Origin: Streptomyces sp. PCS3-D2
GTDB taxonomy: Bacteria > Actinomycetota > Actinomycetes > Streptomycetales > Streptomycetaceae
Direction of reading: 5' to 3'
Assembly: GCF_000612545.2 (NCBI RefSeq)
Contig: NZ_CP097800.1
Location: 6,440,001-6,504,000, forward strand
Length of the DNA stretch: 64,000 bases
Shown here: positions 13,187 through 29,323 of the stretch, in pieces
Position numbering within the stretch: position 1 is the stretch's first letter
Layout: every line of letters begins with the position of its first letter
Translations under genes and position numbers: made by a program
The notes under the pieces: generated by a model
What the model saw: only the letters and a program-made list of their open reading frames with translations
What the model was told of the DNA's origin: nothing
Database searches by the model: none

Positions 13187-13440
13187 TAGGCTGGGTGACG
13201 GCTGTCGACCCTGTGCGGGAGAGTCCTCCGAGTGAGCAAGACGGAGGCGCCGAAGGAGCAAATCCTCCCCGGAATCTCTCAGGCATACGTACCGCACGGA
13301 CGAGGCCACTCTGGAAAGCAGGGCGGGTGCCGGGCGCGCAGTGCCGGTCCCCCTCCTCACCGACGGTGAAAGCCGGAGCTCTCGGGAGACCCCCGTGAGA
13401 TCCGGTGAAACTCTCAGGTGCAGATGACAGAGGGGGAGGC
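13187..13440 (+). ncRNA. Tandem glycine riboswitch with extended -10 promoter, controlling gcvP
   Basis: An extended -10 element (tgg then TAGGCT, 13184-13192) would start RNA near 13199. The first aptamer has the conserved cgggagagtcctccg, ggcgccgaaggagcaa and aatctctcaggcatacgtac segments (13215-13300). After the linker with actctggaaagcaggg, a second aptamer follows: accgacggtgaaagcc, then gtgagatccggtgaaactct, then caggtgcagatgacagaggg, to about 13436. These are the hallmark strings of the two-aptamer glycine riboswitch. Glycine binding typically raises expression of glycine-cleavage genes. The remaining 60 bases to the gcvP start would be the expression platform. Confidence 0.93.
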
Positions 13441-23694: not shown

Positions 23695-24651
23695 ATGCAA
23701 GCGTCAGGGAAGAACGCCGGACTGGGCCTCGCCCTCGTCTCGGCGTGTGCGTTCGGCGGTTCCGGAGTGGCTGCGAAGCCGCTGATAGAGGCGGGTCTGG
23801 ACCCCCTCCACATGGTGTGGCTCAGAGTGGCCGGCGCGGCGCTCGTGCTGTCCCCGCTGGCTTGGCGCCACCGCAACCTCCTCCGGCGCAGGCCCGCGCT
23901 GCTCGCGGGTTTCGGTCTGGTCGCCGTCGCGGGCGTTCAGGCCTTCTACTTCGCCTCCCTGTCCCGTATCCCGGTGGGGGTGGCCCTCCTGCTGGAGTAC
24001 CTGGGGCCGGCGCTGCTGCTCGGTTACATCCGCTTCGTCCAGCGCAGGCCCGTGACCCGCGGGGCCGCCGCCGGCGCGGCCGTGGCCGTCGTCGGCCTGG
24101 CCTGCGTGGTGGAGATCTGGGCCGGGCTGAGCCTGGATCTGCTCGGCGTGCTCTTCGGCCTCGCCGCCGCCTGCTGCCAGGCGTTCTACTTCGTCTTCGC
24201 CGACCAGGGCTCCGACGGCGAGGACGCTCCCGACCCGCTCGGAGTGATCGCCTACGGCATGCTCGTCGGCGCCCTGGTGATGACGGTGATCGCCCGACCG
24301 TGGGAGATCGACTGGCAGGTGCTGGGCGGGGAGGCGTCCGTCGGCGGGACGATGGTGCCGGCGCCTGCGTTGCTCGGCTGGGTCGTGCTCGTCGCGACCG
24401 TCTTCGCGTACGTGACCGGAGTGGTCTCGGTCCGCAGGCTCTCTCCCCAGATCGCGGGTGTGGTGGCCTTCCTGGAGGCCGTGGTGGCCACCGTGCTGGC
24501 CTGGGTCCTGCTCGGCGAGCACCTGTCGACCTGGCAGATCGTCGGTGGCGCCCTGGTGCTGGGCGGCGCCTTCATCGCGCAGTCCTCCCGGCCGGCCCCG
24601 CAGCCCGCCGCCGAACCGCACCCGGTGGACCGGGAACCCACGAGAGCCTAG
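23695..24651 (+). CDS. EamA-family (drug/metabolite) transporter, first copy
   Basis: 318 residues with ten hydrophobic spans in two EamA repeats. The repeats begin LALVSACAFGGSGVAAKPLI and GVLFGLAAACCQAFYFVFAD. Such proteins export amino acids or other small metabolites; the substrate is unknown. The start ATG 23695 looks leaderless: GTGACG (23660-23665), 17 bases, CATGAT (23683-23688), then 6 bases. Its stop codon TAG is part of the -10 element of the next promoter, which drives a leader peptide and the second EamA gene. Confidence 0.9.
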   Translation: MQASGKNAGLGLALVSACAFGGSGVAAKPLIEAGLDPLHMVWLRVAGAALVLSPLAWRHRNLLRRRPALLAGFGLVAVAGVQAFYFASLSRIPVGVALLLEYLGPALLLGYIRFVQRRPVTRGAAAGAAVAVVGLACVVEIWAGLSLDLLGVLFGLAAACCQAFYFVFADQGSDGEDAPDPLGVIAYGMLVGALVMTVIARPWEIDWQVLGGEASVGGTMVPAPALLGWVVLVATVFAYVTGVVSVRRLSPQIAGVVAFLEAVVATVLAWVLLGEHLSTWQIVGGALVLGGAFIAQSSRPAPQPAAEPHPVDREPTRA

Positions 24652-24654
24652 GCT
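24626..24654 (+). promoter_or_regulatory. Promoter of the EamA leader peptide
   Basis: TGGACC (24626-24631), 17 bases, TAGGCT (24649-24654). Transcription would start at 24661/24662, exactly at the leader ATG. The -10 hexamer includes the stop codon of the upstream gene. Confidence 0.55.
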
Positions 24655-24661
24655 GACGCCC

Positions 24662-24697
24662 ATGCATGCGACCGTGCTTCCGCCTCCCGCGTTCTAG
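24662..24697 (+). CDS. Candidate 11-residue leader peptide MHATVLPPPAF
   Basis: The reading frame ATG to TAG encodes 11 residues with three consecutive prolines before Ala-Phe-stop. It begins at the predicted transcription start, so it would be translated leaderless. Its last codons and stop form one arm and the loop of a small hairpin (24686-24701). That hairpin excludes a longer 12-bp helix (24697-24708 with 24750-24761). The arrangement looks like ribosome-mediated attenuation ahead of the EamA gene. It has no homologue known to me; existence as a translated peptide is inference. Confidence 0.55.
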   Translation: MHATVLPPPAF

Positions 24698-24761
24698 CGG
24701 GCGGCGCCTCCACGATGACGGCCCGGCCCGGGGAGCACCCGGGCGGGTCGGTGCTGCCCGC
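24686..24761 (+). promoter_or_regulatory. Mutually exclusive RNA helices between the leader peptide and EamA gene
   Basis: Helix A: cccgc/gcggg (24686-24690 with 24697-24701). Helix B: gcccggg/cccgggc (24726-24744). Long helix C: gcgggcggcgcc (24697-24708) with ggtgctgcccgc (24750-24761), fully paired with two G-T pairs, enclosing helix B. A and C share bases 24697-24701. The EamA GTG is 51 bases past helix C. Confidence 0.5.
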
Positions 24762-24811
24762 GAAGCGATGACCCGAACCACTCATCCTTCACGCACGCGC
24801 GGAGAACACAC

Positions 24812-25795
24812 GTGTCGAACCACTCGCCCGCCGCCGGGCGCAGTCTGCTGTACCTCGTCGTCGCCGGAGCCGCCTGGGGCACCGCCGGGGCGGCCGCCTC
24901 CCTCCTCTTCCTGGGCAGTGACCTCGGTCCGCTCGCCCTGTCGTTCTGGCGGTGCGCGGGCGGGCTCGTCGTCCTGCTCGGAGTGCTCGCCCTGCGCCGG
25001 GCGCGCCCCGGGCGAGGGCGGGCCCGGCCGTCCGCGGGCGAGCCCTCGGTGGGCTCACTCGTCGTGACCGGGCTGCTGTTCACCCTTTTCCAGGCCGCCT
25101 ACTTCGCCGCCGTGCGCGAGACCGGGTTGGCCGTCGGCACCGTGGTCACCCTCGGCGCCGGGCCCGTGCTCATCGCGCTCGGCGCCCGCTCCTGGATGGG
25201 TGAGCGTCTGGGCCGCGGCGGCACGGTCGCCGTCGTGGGGGCGCTCGCCGGACTCGCCGTCCTGGTCCTGGGCGGCGGCGGCGCCGAGGTACGCCCGCGG
25301 GGTGTCGGGTGGGCGCTCGTGTCGGCCGCCGGGTACGCCGCGATGACCCTGCGGGCCCGCCGGCTCGGGCGCCGCGGGGCGGCCGGGGACCCGCTGGTGA
25401 CCACCGCCTGGTCCGTCGCGGTGGGCGCGGTGTGCCTGCTCCCGCTCGCCGCCGCCGAGGGGCTGCTGCCGCACACCGCGGACCTGGGGCGGGTGCTGTG
25501 GCTACTGCTGTACGTCGCCACCGTGCCGACGGCGCTGGCGTACGCGCTCTACTTCACGGGTGCCGCCGCCGTCCGTGCCGCGACCGTGTCAGTGATCATG
25601 CTGATCGAACCGGTCAGCGCGGCGGCGATCGCCGTCCTCGTCCTCGGGGAGCGACTGACCGGCGCCGTCGTGCTGGGCACCGCACTGCTGCTGGCGGCGG
25701 TCGGCGCGTTGATCGTGGCGGAGTCCCGCCGTCCGGCGGGCGGGCCCGCCGGACCCGCCGCCGTGCGGCCGGCTCCTCAGAGCGCGGTGAGATAG
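24812..25795 (+). CDS. EamA-family transporter, second copy, behind a leader peptide
   Basis: 327 residues, ten predicted spans, with the EamA pattern [20 protein letters not shown] at the start, [20 protein letters not shown], and [20 protein letters not shown] near the end. It is a metabolite exporter of unknown substrate. GTG 24812 has GGAGAA 7 bases upstream. The 160-base leader before it carries a promoter, an 11-codon peptide and alternative hairpins, so expression is probably controlled after transcription starts. The last 19 bases overlap the end of the opposite-strand oxidase-fold gene. Confidence 0.9.
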
Positions 25796-26475
25796 TCCGG
25801 GACGGCGATGCCGGGGTCCAGGTCCGGGGCGGGCACGGGCGTCCCGTAGGTCGCGCCGACCGGGACCACGCCCGCCCAGTACGGCAGGCCCAGGTCCTCG
25901 GCGTCGTCGTTCGACGATCCCGTGCGGAGCTTCGCGGACACCTCGTCCAGGTCCACCCGGATCACCGCGGTGGCGGCGAGCTCCTTGGCGTCGGCCGGGC
26001 GCACGTCGCCGGAACGGCCCGGGGCGACGGCGTCGATCATGGCGTTCAGCGCCGTTCGGCACTCCGCCTCGTCCGTCACCTGGCGGGCGGTTCCGTGGAC
26101 GACCACCGAGCGGTAGTTGAGCGAGTGGTGGAAGGCCGAGCGGGCCAGCACCAGGCCGTCGACGTGGGTGACGGTGACGCAGACGGGCAGCCCCGGGTCG
26201 GTCCGGCCGGCCGCCAGCAGCGGGCGGGAACCGGTGGAGCCGTGCAGGTAGAGCGACTCCCCGACCCGGGCGAACAGGGTCGGCAGCACCACCGGCGCGC
26301 CGTCGCGGACGTAGCCGAGGTGGCAGATGTAGGCCTCGTCGAGTATCGAGTGCACCGTCTCGCGGTCGTAGCGGGCCCGGTCGCGGGAGCGGGTGGGGAC
26401 GGTGCGGTCGGTGGGCTCGTACGCACCGGGCGTCCCGGTGCTCTCCGTCGGCTGCGCGGCAGGCGTGGCGGTCAT
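25777..26475 (-). CDS. Pyridoxamine 5'-phosphate oxidase-fold protein (NimA-like)
   Basis: 232 residues. The flavin-binding split barrel is seen in [51 protein letters not shown] and [14 protein letters not shown], the pattern of the NimA/nitroreductase-like branch of the pyridoxamine-phosphate-oxidase fold. The reaction is unknown; FMN or F420 dependence cannot be told. It is divergent from the MocR-type regulator with a 12-base palindrome between them, a standard context in which the MocR protein controls the neighbour. The 3' end overlaps the EamA gene by 19 bases. Confidence 0.88.
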
Positions 26476-26489
26476 GGCGCGGACTCCAT

Positions 26490-26501
26490 TGCACTAGTGC
26501 A
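26490..26501. promoter_or_regulatory. Palindrome between the MocR gene and the oxidase-fold gene
   Basis: tgcactagtgca is a perfect 12-base palindrome. The related half-site gtgctag recurs at 26513-26519, over the first codons of the regulator gene. CATAAT (26500-26505) would serve as the -10 of the MocR gene. Confidence 0.6.
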
Positions 26502-26512
26502 TAATGTGGTTT

Positions 26513-27847
26513 GTGCTAGGAGAATATCGGATCACCGGGCGTCGTACATCTGATATCGCCGCCAGTGTCGAGGCGGGCGTGGCTTCGGGCGAGCTGCCCC
26601 CCGGATCCCCGCTGCCGCCGATGCGGGAGCTGGCGGGGGTGCTGGGCGTCAACCCCAACACCGTGGCGGCCGCCTACCGGACACTGCGCGAACGCGGGGT
26701 CATCGAAACGGCCGGGCGGCGGGGGAGCCGGGTGCGCTCCCGCCCGTCGAGCACCCCGCGGGACGCGCTGAGGATGGTGCTCCCGGCGGGGGTGCGGGAC
26801 GTCGCGCAGGGCAACCCCGACGTGTCCCTGCTCCCCGCGCTGGACGGGGCGCTGGCGGCCGCCGCCCGCCGCCACGGGCGGACACCGACGCTGTACGGCG
26901 CGGACCCCGTCGCGCCGGACCTGGCGCGGATCGCCCGAGCCGACTTCGACGCGGACGCGGTGCCGCCCGGGCCGGTCGCGGTGACCTCGGGCGCGCTGGA
27001 CGCCATCGAACGGGTCCTGGCCGCCCACCTGAGGCCCGGGGACGCGGTGGCGGTCGAGGATCCGGGTTGGGGCGCCGTGCTGGACCTGGTTCCCGCCCTC
27101 GGGATGCGGCTGCTGCCGGTGGCCGTGGACGACGACGGGCCCCGTGTCGACGCAGCGGCCCGGGCCCTTGCGGCCGGGGCGCGGGCGCTGGTGGTGACCT
27201 CCCGGGCGCAGAACCCGACGGGCGCGGCCGTGAGCGGGGAACGGGCGGCGGAGCTGCGGGAGCTGCTCGCGCGGTATCCGGGAGTGCTGCTGATCGAGGA
27301 CGATCACGGGCACGGCATCGTCGATCTGCCGTTGCACCCGCTGGGTGGGGTGACCCGGCACTGGGCGGTGATCCGCTCCACCGCCAAGGCCTACGGCCCC
27401 GACCTGCGGCTCGCGGTGCTGACCGGGGACGAGGTGACCCTGGACCGGGTGCGGGGGCGCCAGCGGCTGGGCCCCGGGTGGGTGAGTCGGCTGCTGCAGT
27501 ACGCGGTGGTGGAGCTGTGGACCGCGCACGCCGTGGACCGGGCCGCGGTCGCGCGGGCCTACGCGGAGCGGCGGGACGCCCTGGTCGAGGCCCTGTGGGA
27601 GCGGGGGGTGCGGGCGCACGGGCGCAGCGGGCTGAACGTGTGGGTGCCGGTGGCCGACGAGACGGTGGTCGTTGCCAGGCTGCTCGCCGCGGGATGGGGG
27701 GTGGCCCCGGGGGCCGCCTTCCGCGTCGAGGCGGGGCCGGGAGTGCGCCTGACGGTGTCCGGGCTCGACGTGGCCGAAGTGCCGGCGCTGGCCGACGCGG
27801 TGGTCGCGGCGGTCCGCCCCGGCGTGCCGGGCGGGCGCAACGACTGA
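26513..27847 (+). CDS. MocR-type regulator (GntR DNA-binding domain fused to an aminotransferase-like domain)
   Basis: About 444 residues. A GntR winged helix occupies residues about 8-75 (PPGSPLPPMRELAGVLGVNP, NTVAAAYRTLRERGVIE). The rest is a fold-type I aminotransferase-like domain with VTSRAQNPTGA and the DDHGH loop. The PLP-lysine site reads RSTAKAYGPDLRL, with the lysine present. MocR proteins sense PLP or an amino-acid adduct and control vitamin B6, GABA or related genes. The divergent neighbour is a pyridoxamine-phosphate-oxidase-fold protein, so a link to B6 or flavin chemistry is plausible. GTG 26513 fits a leaderless start 7 bases after CATAAT; ATG 26504 lies within that -10. Confidence 0.9.
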   Translation: MLGEYRITGRRTSDIAASVEAGVASGELPPGSPLPPMRELAGVLGVNPNTVAAAYRTLRERGVIETAGRRGSRVRSRPSSTPRDALRMVLPAGVRDVAQGNPDVSLLPALDGALAAAARRHGRTPTLYGADPVAPDLARIARADFDADAVPPGPVAVTSGALDAIERVLAAHLRPGDAVAVEDPGWGAVLDLVPALGMRLLPVAVDDDGPRVDAAARALAAGARALVVTSRAQNPTGAAVSGERAAELRELLARYPGVLLIEDDHGHGIVDLPLHPLGGVTRHWAVIRSTAKAYGPDLRLAVLTGDEVTLDRVRGRQRLGPGWVSRLLQYAVVELWTAHAVDRAAVARAYAERRDALVEALWERGVRAHGRSGLNVWVPVADETVVVARLLAAGWGVAPGAAFRVEAGPGVRLTVSGLDVAEVPALADAVVAAVRPGVPGGRND

Positions 27848-27894
27848 GCACGGGCCCCGGGCGGCCGCGCCACGCCCGTCGGGCCGGTTCCCGT

Positions 27895-27930
27895 CGCCCC
27901 GGTGGTCCTGCCGACAGGACCACCGGGGCG
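27895..27930. terminator. Bidirectional terminator between the MocR gene and the small membrane protein gene
   Basis: A perfect 16-bp stem (cgccccggtggtcctg and its complement) with a 4-base loop, located between convergent genes. Confidence 0.9.
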
Positions 27931-27936
27931 CGTGGG

Positions 27937-28194
27937 TCAGAGCGCCTCGAGCAGACCGCCCAGGGTGAAGACGAGGCCGCACAGCGCGGTCACCGAGGCC
28001 AGGAACCGGTAGTACGTGGCGGACGCGATCCGCTGCGCCGGGCCGAGCTCGCCACGCGTGTGCAGGGCGAGCTCGGTGTTGGCGGCCGATCGGCGGGCCA
28101 GGGCGTCGGCGGCGCCGCGGATGTTCAGTGACACCCAGGCGCCCGCGAGGAGGGCGGCGGGCCCGATGAACAGCAGGACGACGGCCAGGCTCAA
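27937..28194 (-). CDS. Small two-span membrane protein
   Basis: 85 residues, unrecognised. It starts LSLAVVLLFIGPAALLAGAW, has a charged middle (RSAANTELALHTRGELGPAQ), and ends with a second span (FLASVTALCGLVFTLGGLLE). The proposed start is TTG at 28194, whose TTGA overlaps the TGA of the upstream EamA gene; GAGGAG lies about 6 bases before it. This implies translational coupling to the exporter. An upstream in-frame start would lie inside the EamA gene. Confidence 0.7.
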   Translation of the reverse strand: MSLAVVLLFIGPAALLAGAWVSLNIRGAADALARRSAANTELALHTRGELGPAQRIASATYYRFLASVTALCGLVFTLGGLLEAL

Positions 28195-29249
28195 GAGGTG
28201 TCTCCTCGGAGGTATGAAGATCGGCCGGAGAGTAGCAGGCGCGGTCGGGCCTGCATGCGGCGGGTGGGGTGGGTCTGGGTGAGGGCGGCGCCCGCCAGGA
28301 CGATCGCGGCGCCGACCGGGGTGTTCCAGTGCAGTTGCTCGCCGAGGACCAGCACACCGGCCGTGGTGGCGATGACCGGGATGAAGTAGGTGACCATCTG
28401 GGCGGTGGTCGGGCCGACCTCCGTCACCAGGCCGTACTGCATCTGCAGGGCCATGCCGGTGCCCAGGGCGCCCAGCGCGATCACCGACAGGGTCGGCCAG
28501 AGCGGGAACGAGGCCGGGGCCGCGGTGAACAGGGCACTGACCAGCGTGAGCTGGAGGGTGGAGAGCAGGAGCTGCCCGCCGGTGAGGGCCACGGGGGAGC
28601 CCGGGGCGCCGGCCAGCGTGCGGCGGACGTAGATCCAGCCGATGGGGTAGCAGAACGAGGCCAGCAGGGCGAACGCCGTGCCCCTGGCATCGACGCCGGA
28701 GAAGCCGTGCCAGGCGCCGAGTACGGTCAGCACGCCGAGGAAGCCGAGGCCCAGGCCGGCGAAGCGGCGGCGCGTCGGGCGGTCCTCGGAGAGGGCGACC
28801 AGCGACAGCGCCATGCCCCACAGCGGGGACGTGGCGTTGCAGATGCCGGCCAGGCTGGAGGGGATGCTCAGCTCCGCGTACGCGAAGAGCGAGAACGGCG
28901 CGGTGTTGAGCAGGAGCGCCGCGACGGTGAGGTGGCCCCAGGTACGCAGGCCCCGGGGCAGCGGCTCGCGGCGGACCAGCAGCACGGCCAGCAGCGCGAC
29001 CGCACCGAACAGGACCCGGCCCAGCGCCACCTGGAAGGGCGCGTACGCCTCGGTGCCCACCTTGATCAGCAGGAAGCTGAAGCCCCAGACCACCGAGAGG
29101 ATGGCGAACCGCACGCGCCAGTCGAGGAGCCCGCGCCGACGGGGGGCGGTGGTGGGGGAGGCGGCTGTGGCCGTGGCTGTGGTGGAGGCAGTGGCGGAGG
29201 CCGGTGCAGGGGGTTCAGGGGCCGGCCGAGGGGCGGCGGGTGCGCTCAT
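28191..29249 (-). CDS. EamA-family transporter, third copy
   Basis: 352 residues. A low-complexity Ala/Thr/Pro N-terminus of about 45 residues precedes ten spans. The two EamA repeats include AILSVVWGFSFLLIKVGTEA and AQMVTYFIPVIATTAGVLVL, plus the GEQLHWNTPVGAAIVLAGAA closing motif. Substrate unknown. The start was set at MSAPAAP; TTGTCC, 17 bases, CACAGT lies 7 bases upstream of it, and AAGGGGC may also serve as ribosome site. It is divergent from a LysR gene, a context typical of a LysR-controlled exporter. A small membrane protein is coupled downstream. Confidence 0.9.
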   Translation of the reverse strand: MSAPAAPRPAPEPPAPASATASTTATATAASPTTAPRRRGLLDWRVRFAILSVVWGFSFLLIKVGTEAYAPFQVALGRVLFGAVALLAVLLVRREPLPRGLRTWGHLTVAALLLNTAPFSLFAYAELSIPSSLAGICNATSPLWGMALSLVALSEDRPTRRRFAGLGLGFLGVLTVLGAWHGFSGVDARGTAFALLASFCYPIGWIYVRRTLAGAPGSPVALTGGQLLLSTLQLTLVSALFTAAPASFPLWPTLSVIALGALGTGMALQMQYGLVTEVGPTTAQMVTYFIPVIATTAGVLVLGEQLHWNTPVGAAIVLAGAALTQTHPTRRMQARPRLLLSGRSSYLRGDTS

Positions 29250-29323
29250 GCCCCTTACTGTGCTGGCATCAACTTCGTAGGACAATCGAGATTTTCTCCG
29301 AGTGACGACGTAGCATCGCTTAC
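29250..29323. promoter_or_regulatory. Divergent promoter region of the EamA and LysR genes
   Basis: On the minus strand TTGTCC, 17 bases, CACAGT precede the EamA ATG by 7 bases. On the plus strand TAGCAT (29311-29316) lies 7 bases before the LysR ATG, giving a leaderless start. The imperfect dyad tcgagattttctccga between them could be the LysR site. Confidence 0.5.

Follow-up and report, generated by a model that had tools for sequence, protein, structure and literature searches.

The question raised by the locus described here is how expression of the second of two adjacent EamA transporter genes is controlled in Streptomyces sp. PCS3-D2. The locus lies in a 64,000-nucleotide stretch of its genome (NZ_CP097800.1, positions 6,440,001–6,504,000; below, the window, in whose coordinates all positions are given). 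Both genes, EamA1 (23695–24651; Pfam EamA, 3.1e-29) and EamA2 (24812–25795, GTG start; Pfam EamA, 4.1e-27), encode DMT/EamA transporters and, like the promoter, leader and pairing elements of the locus, are on the plus strand. The 160-base stretch that separates them holds a promoter, an 11-codon leader open reading frame (ORF), a set of pairing arms, and the Shine–Dalgarno (SD) sequence of EamA2. We propose that this stretch is a ribosome-mediated leader-peptide attenuator of EamA2, in which a ribosome stalled at Pro-Pro codons would allow helix C of the RNA to form and thereby free the SD (the ON state); we put the probability of this reading at about 0.6. As an architecture, leader-peptide attenuation with exclusive helices, which an earlier note on this DNA had suggested, is well supported. 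That the leader is translated, that ribosomes stall on it, and that control is exerted at initiation, we infer, and the direction, in which stalling, helix C and the ON state go together with a translational output, is proposed with moderate confidence.

The putative promoter comprises a −35-like TGGACC (24626–24631, by direct reading) and, after 17 bases, a −10 box TAGGCT (24649–24654) located 7 nt 5′ of the leader ATG, an arrangement of the leaderless type. The stop codon of EamA1 (TAG, 24649–24651) forms the first three bases of this box. The leader ORF (24662–24697) starts with ATG at 24662, encodes MHATVLPPPAF, and ends with TAG at 24695–24697. Its Pro-Pro-Pro-Ala codons constitute arm 1 (24681–24690), the 5′ side of helix A, which pairs with 24697–24706 (9 bp and one mismatch, read by eye). 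In the minimum-energy fold of the naked RNA, the CUCC of arm 1 is paired with the SD. Arm 2, GCGGGCGGCGCC (24697–24708), is common to helices A and C, with all of it pairing in the 12-bp helix C with arm 3, GGTGCTGCCCGC (24750–24761); since the 3′ arm of helix A also serves helix C, the two are mutually exclusive. Helix C encloses hairpin B (24720–24749), which in the fold has 12 bp with a bulge and not the 7 bp previously assigned to it; the promoter, start codon, peptide, and exclusive helices A and C are present just as the earlier note had described them. Beyond helix C, arm 3 has additional partners downstream. In helix E (24744–24775, from the fold), a rival of helix C, it is part of a local hairpin, whereas in helix D, CCGCG (24758–24762) pairs with CGCGG (24798–24802), so that the first two bases of the SD GGAG (24801–24804) are paired and helix C is excluded. 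Finally, CCTCCA at the end of arm 2 (24707–24712) is a candidate anti-SD, forming a putative helix S that is weak in the clade of the window. The fold of the fragment 24662–24812 has a z-score of −3.75, with 0 of 200 shuffles as stable.

The leader was compared across 224 loci, of which 205 yielded a leader candidate; after removal of 24 duplicates, 181 distinct leaders were left, and with four members of a second class set aside, 177 remained in the main family. These share the core V-[L/S]-(P)PPA-x-stop, are 11–16 codons long, and start with ATG (156) or GTG (21). Numbered back from the stop, codon −7 is Val in 164 of them, written as GTG, GTT, GTC or GTA, and codon −6 encodes Leu in 151 cases and Ser in a further 22; Pro is found at −5 in 163 and at −3 in 171, and Ala at −2 in 169. 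The presence of Pro at −4 in 177/177 is partly set by the extraction rule, which demanded Pro-Pro and was applied in the leader-blind scan described below as well. Three synonymous codons are used at each of Pro −5, −4 and −3, and the residues at the proposed stall site are kept through synonymous change, as a simple count of residues and codons shows. Val −7 was not set by the extraction rule, though most loci were collected by similarity; among the 36 leaders of the leader-blind set, this position is occupied by Val in 31, Cys in 3, and Ile and Thr in one each. In the registers used here, helix A does not include the codons of Val −7 and Leu −6; the synonymous change seen in these codons, at the level of sequence comparison, points to selection acting on the leader peptide. 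A box TANNNT is positioned 6–8 nt 5′ of the start codon in 174 of the 177 leaders (7 nt in 142), a count somewhat favoured by a preference for such a box in the choice of start codon. The −35 position reads mostly TTGTCC or similar in the other Streptomyces class.

The second leader class, MQxxLTPPPPA-x-stop, is represented by four loci (L069, L088, L184 and L219) from Streptomyces and from a further actinomycete family, f17 (L088). Its arm 3 is poorly conserved, and the downstream protein in L069 and L088 is EamA2-like, 46–47% identical to EamA2.

The range of the leader was delineated by several searches. A query of 261 bases matched 52 of 150 genomes of the genus, in many cases only over a short part, and a pattern search through named genomes yielded 10 loci, all in Streptomyces, the nearest being 90% identical over the stretch. 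The leader ORF is present in all 40 loci first collected by similarity or pattern, in each case between matches to EamA1 and EamA2 (EamA1 is in two pieces in L038, and the EamA2 match is in pieces at L013 and L038). In 35 of them, the EamA1 stop has the same position relative to the leader and forms the start of the −10 box. With a sequence-only model (R1), matches were obtained in 85 of 121 genomes from the genus, 66 of 99 from the order (none of them in the 15 genomes of its two other families), 28 of 246 from the class, 26 of 100 from family f17, and 6 of 35 from family f18; all of these tallies include weak matches, some by chance. Here, f17 and f18 are two further actinomycete families, and c1–c3, used below, are sequence-based clades defined in this analysis. 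Among the 19 loci without a leader candidate, 15 are weak model matches (E-values 8e-5 to 0.01), and the other four do carry the leader, with an insert after the stop (L010 and L223), a short flank (L119), or a variant of arm 2 (L129). The insert of L010 and L223, both from one genome (G083), is ~55 bases long, contains an inverted repeat, and is located just 3′ of the leader stop; it falls in the loop of helix A and leaves the arms in place.

Leader-blind searches with the EamA2 protein found it in 24 of 31 genomes of the genus and, with an f17 homologue as query, in 16 of 61 genomes of the order of f17. In 36 of the 40 homologues so obtained, a leaderless mini-ORF (8–20 codons, starting 5–9 nt after TANNNT and ending with PP-x(1-4)-stop) precedes the protein match at a distance of at most 330 nt. 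Widening of the upstream stretch raised this to 39, with the leader lying farther upstream in G014, G018 and G390, where the protein match had begun late; the sole homologue without a leader is that of G577 (L264/L269). As a background, the same scan of 354 stretches of the window gave one match, the leader itself. A short conserved ORF is therefore found between the promoter and the putatively regulated gene, and the peptide core and its pairing arms are kept across the genus and the two further families. Absence of conservation, one of the two outcomes that the earlier note had named as refuting its view, is thereby excluded.

The leader is associated with one EamA subfamily. Of 112 readable loci, 111 have behind it a protein whose best match among the three EamA proteins of the window is EamA2; in the lone exception (L166), the start codon was mis-picked. 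The identity of the leader-linked protein to EamA2 is 41–52% in f17 and 55–62% in f18. Three loci from two other families, in which 22 predicted genes were scanned, have no neighbouring gene family in common with the window besides EamA, nor a second EamA gene beside the leader and EamA2. With unrelated neighbours and the same EamA subfamily, the leader travels with the gene and not with the neighbourhood, and the regulation appears to belong to the EamA2 transporter itself. An attempt to assign the substrate of EamA2 from neighbouring genes was abandoned, as no common neighbourhood was found in these three loci.

The position of the arms relative to the stop codon bears on the proposed mechanism. 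The leaders are followed by a GCGGGCGGC-like arm 3′ of the stop and, farther downstream, by a near-invariant GCTGCCCGC arm. In 174 of the 177 leaders, the arm 2 motif starts no earlier than the last base of the stop and no later than 3 nt 3′ of it, the extraction having required a position no more than 16 nt from the stop. If the leading edge of the ribosome is taken to be 15 nt from the P site, it would lie near the end of the stop codon when Pro −4 is in the P site, and about 9 bases farther when the ribosome is at the stop; arm 2 fills the gap between these two edges. A 70S ribosome would initiate on the AUG at the very 5′ end of the transcript, which the promoter spacing suggests to be leaderless, and on running to the stop would cover arm 2 (24697–24705) and block helix C. 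After its departure, arms 1 and 2 would pair to form helix A, and arm 3 would then be retained by local hairpins that contain the SD of EamA2 or crowd it (E or D, as well as S in some clades), yielding the OFF state. In turn, a ribosome stalled at Pro-Pro, with its leading edge near 24698, would occupy arm 1 and leave arm 2 free; helix C could then form around hairpin B, arm 3 would be withdrawn from D or E, and the SD would open, giving the ON state.

Ribosome masks applied to the nascent RNA up to arm 3 in 163 sequences are in agreement with the first part of this scheme. The mean number of expected pairs in helix C is 8.6 with the ribosome stalled at Pro, 2.5 in naked RNA, and 0.5 with the ribosome at the stop, the last value following partly from the masking of arm 2 by construction, and helix A has 6.2 expected pairs in naked RNA. 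Within the limits of the assumed 15-nt edge and of masks that act by construction, the stall position thus discriminates between the helices. For the window, the openness of the SD is predicted to be 0.81 in the stalled state, 0.20 at the stop, and 0.29 in naked RNA. The GGAG of the SD is invariant in an alignment of 55 sequences of c2. Four loci (L059, L062, L074 and L084) have an SD that reads GGAGAGATCTCC directly 5′ of the ATG; it is self-complementary and also complementary to ATCTCTCC, located after arm 2.

The pairings were assessed in a swap test, comparing cognate arms with arms exchanged within a clade; the counts below refer to exchanges that the cognate arms failed to beat. For helices A, B, C and E, 173 sequences were used, and for D and S, 163–164, after omission of those with no arm 3 or SD in range as well as of L008 and L205, in which arm 3 was misplaced. 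Hairpin B gave 0/2000 in c2, c3 and f17, 45/2000 in c1, and 278/2000 in f18 (six sequences). Helix E gave 1/2000 in f17, and helix A 0/2000 in c3 and 75/2000 in c2, with a weak 106/2000 in c2 for helix C. The duplex of helix D gave 0/2000 in c3, 47/2000 in c2 and 127/2000 in f18, with no signal in c1 and a result worse than the swaps in f17 (2000/2000); in a fixed register, the counts were 8/2000 in c2 and 924/2000 in c1, where each of its five pairs is standard in at least 15 of 17 sequences and hardly any variation is found. Helix S gave 2/5000 in f17, 4/5000 in c2 and 295/5000 in f18, and nothing in c1 (4622/5000) or c3 (3740/5000). A control stretch upstream of the SD showed no signal when pooled (986/1000), nor in c1, c2 and f17, with 81/1000 in c3 and 67/1000 in f18. 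Pooled over the clades, helices A, B, C, D, E and S each beat every swap, a result that partly reflects clade structure. In an alignment of 21 sequences of f17, the set A, S, B and E has 43 doubly changed cells versus 16.5 in shuffled data (0/500), and the set C and B has 23 versus 11.0, with 21 of the 23 in B. Parsimony on the tree of EamA proteins yields six double pair-keeping events for hairpin B and four for helix E, with none in four slid controls for either, and zero such events for helices A and C.

These comparisons place the helices at different levels of support. Hairpin B is firm in general and helix E is firm in f17, whereas helices A and D have fair support, in one clade each. 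Helix C is conserved and hardly varies, so that variation puts it to almost no test. Covariation, which the earlier note had suggested as a check on helices A, B and C, is strong for hairpin B in four of the five clades and for helix E in f17, and fair for helix A in c3, with weak signals in c2 for helices A and C. Both pairings of the exclusive pair A and C, with one of which the ORF overlaps, are kept across the clades. Helix S is doubtful as a general element, and its role as a general OFF helix was rejected, since the swaps support it in f17 and c2 only and the event counts do not. Helix D as a general element was likewise rejected (duplex swaps in c3 and weakly in c2, fixed register in c2 only, near-invariance in c1, absence in f17), as was helix E, supported by swaps in f17 only although its arms recur in c2 and f18.

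A number of observations weigh against the proposed switch. The minimum-energy fold of the naked window RNA shows helix C rather than helix A, and in full-length f17 RNA helix E outcompetes helix C even with the mask of a stalled ribosome. Swaps of helix A give no signal in c1 (930), f17 (1867) or f18 (1673 of 2000), those of helix E none in c1 (352), c2 (823), c3 (1386) or f18 (1843 of 2000), and those of helix C none within c1, f17 and f18, nor in c3; in f17, helix C shows almost no compensatory variation. In c3, the fixed register of helix D is not above the swaps (233/2000). Helix S has one double event, compared with 0–2 in its slid controls, and could coexist with helix C as a pseudoknot. 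The mean openness of the SD over the 163 sequences is 0.29 in the stalled state, 0.28 at the stop and 0.20 in naked RNA, with stalled and at-stop values of 0.46 and 0.32 in c1, 0.28 and 0.26 in c2, 0.27 and 0.31 in c3, 0.19 and 0.17 in f17, and 0.46 and 0.40 in f18. Since the two states are nearly equal, the output step is predicted mainly for the clade of the window, and SD openness was discarded as a general read-out of the switch. The nature of the stall site adds a further objection, since the residues that precede PPP are reported to be weak stallers in Escherichia coli.

PPP is not universal, being found in 158 of the 177 leaders, with only Pro-Pro in the other 19. The residue before PPP is Leu in 140, Ser in 17 and Thr in one, accounting for all 158, and each of these three residues is reported, in the available part of PMC4176338, to reduce PPP stalling in E. 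coli. This weakens a simple reading, implied in the earlier note, in which the motif stalls ribosomes strongly and depends on elongation factor P (EF-P). With Leu, Ser or Thr before every PPP, the leader seems set to respond to an additional signal, and we read the stall, by extrapolation from E. coli, as poised rather than constitutive. The most likely signals would be a slowing of elongation through Pro-Pro-Ala, brought about by an agent removed by EamA2, and a low level of prolyl-tRNA; loss of EF-P alone is less likely. A more specific version, which we regard as tentative, is that the leaders form a family of poised arrest peptides, whose PPP, lying in a weak context, would hold ribosomes up only in the presence of a specific small molecule or of a translation stress that EamA2 relieves.

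The main rival to the ON state of a stalled ribosome keeps the same leader and helices with the opposite sign or another level of output. The C–B stem would then be the OFF structure, as a terminator lacking a U tract or a Rho-linked block, and a Pro-Pro stall would silence EamA2, halting export, for instance, during a shortage of prolyl-tRNA. The dominance of C–B in the minimum-energy fold and an SD openness that hardly depends on the state in most clades favour such a sign, closing an exporter during amino-acid shortage would be logical, and several leader-peptide attenuators of Streptomyces lividans, in the portion of PMC8079986 available, lack a typical terminator. In the other direction, no stem with a U tract is present in this part of the window, and a generic scan for sigma-70 promoters and terminators found neither in 24400–25000, the tool covering no other promoter types; TTTT follows arm 3 at no more than 15 nt in 4 of 163 sequences, and 19 of 163 have at least five T in a stretch of eight bases at some point 5′ of the SD. 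Helix D, in which the SD takes part and which is incompatible with helix C, is supported by duplex swaps in c3, though not in the fixed register. On balance, we consider the opposite sign rather improbable. A classical sensor of prolyl-tRNA starvation, with no nascent-peptide component, has a better chance, while still being the lesser possibility. It would explain the two or three adjacent Pro codons of the kept leaders (with Pro-Pro as an extraction rule) and the exchange of synonymous Pro codons, and the proline codons of mgtL have been tied to effects of EF-P on the mgtA mRNA of Salmonella (PMC6460261, as far as its available text goes). Such a sensor would not need Val −7 and Leu or Ser −6, which are conserved through synonymous change, and no family of proline metabolism is found among the neighbouring genes scanned in the three loci.

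Two other explanations are less likely still. An RNA that binds a ligand or a protein in the manner of a riboswitch, with the short ORF being incidental, would account for an arm 3 more invariant than pairing requires and for the strength of the local hairpin B and, in f17, of helix E. It is unlikely, given that the start codon, frame, Pro-Pro and distance to the stop are kept with synonymous change and that no Rfam match was found near the locus at the gathering score, nor at E-values up to 5 for 24600–24900. Least probable of all is a spacer for translational coupling, or a small functional peptide, between co-transcribed EamA genes. It fits the adjacency of EamA1 and EamA2 in Streptomyces, where the EamA1 stop overlaps the promoter, and is contradicted by the three loci of other families, in which the scan found no second EamA gene next to the leader and EamA2, and by retention of the −10 box, which in several f17 leaders has a non-stop form such as TACGGT.

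The attenuator proposed here, in which a stall would select helix C and open the SD, has relatives among known systems. In translational attenuators of the ermC type, a short leader is followed by exclusive helices, and the stall chooses between those that free and those that hide the SD. These are drug-dependent arrest peptides of resistance genes, to which the arms and the peptide of the EamA2 leader are unrelated. The leaderless leader peptides of S. lividans (leuL, trpL, ilvL and others) resemble it in the leaderless short ORF, the competing hairpins, the actinomycete host and, often, the lack of a typical terminator; in the available part of that study, which targeted amino-acid genes and whose silence therefore carries little weight, the eight listed leaders precede genes of biosynthesis, tRNA ligases or methionine uptake, and none has Pro-Pro or precedes an EamA gene (PMC8079986). 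The mgtL leader likewise has proline codons ahead of a transporter gene and is sensitive to EF-P, but its proline codons are interspersed, the transporter carries Mg2+, and the hosts are gammaproteobacteria (available text of PMC6460261). The bmrCD genes of Bacillus subtilis are also an exporter under ribosome-mediated attenuation, differing in that the exporter is of the ABC type, responds to antibiotics and is controlled by transcriptional attenuation (PMC4191407, part available). In a survey of non-coding RNA motifs of 50 bacterial genomes, eight upstream-ORF (uORF) candidates represent the same kind of motif, and neither EamA nor polyproline occurs in its main text, as available (PMC11109978). 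No earlier report of this leader was found in the literature on EamA, leader peptides, uORFs and Streptomyces attenuation, within a coverage that leaves out preprints and most subscription papers.

Elsewhere in the window, the region 23695–29285 contains three EamA transporter genes inside 6 kb. Between the second and the third, a gene for a MocR-type regulator (26504–27847) is divergent from a pyridoxamine-oxidase-like gene (25777–26475). A glycine riboswitch aptamer (Rfam RF00504) is located at 13206–13304.

We regard the locus as a probable case of a known mechanism, leader-peptide attenuation, in a form that is leaderless, based on Pro-Pro, and tied to an exporter. To our knowledge, most leader-peptide attenuators reported from actinomycetes control amino-acid genes or drug resistance. 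With the leader tied to a single exporter subfamily, an agent that stalls ribosomes on it would be a clue to the exported substrate. Should the leaders be poised arrest peptides, EamA2 would be an exporter for stress or drugs, with its substrate read out by its own leader. The leader family may also show, in a natural setting, how stalling in bacteria other than E. coli is tuned by the residue in front of PPP.

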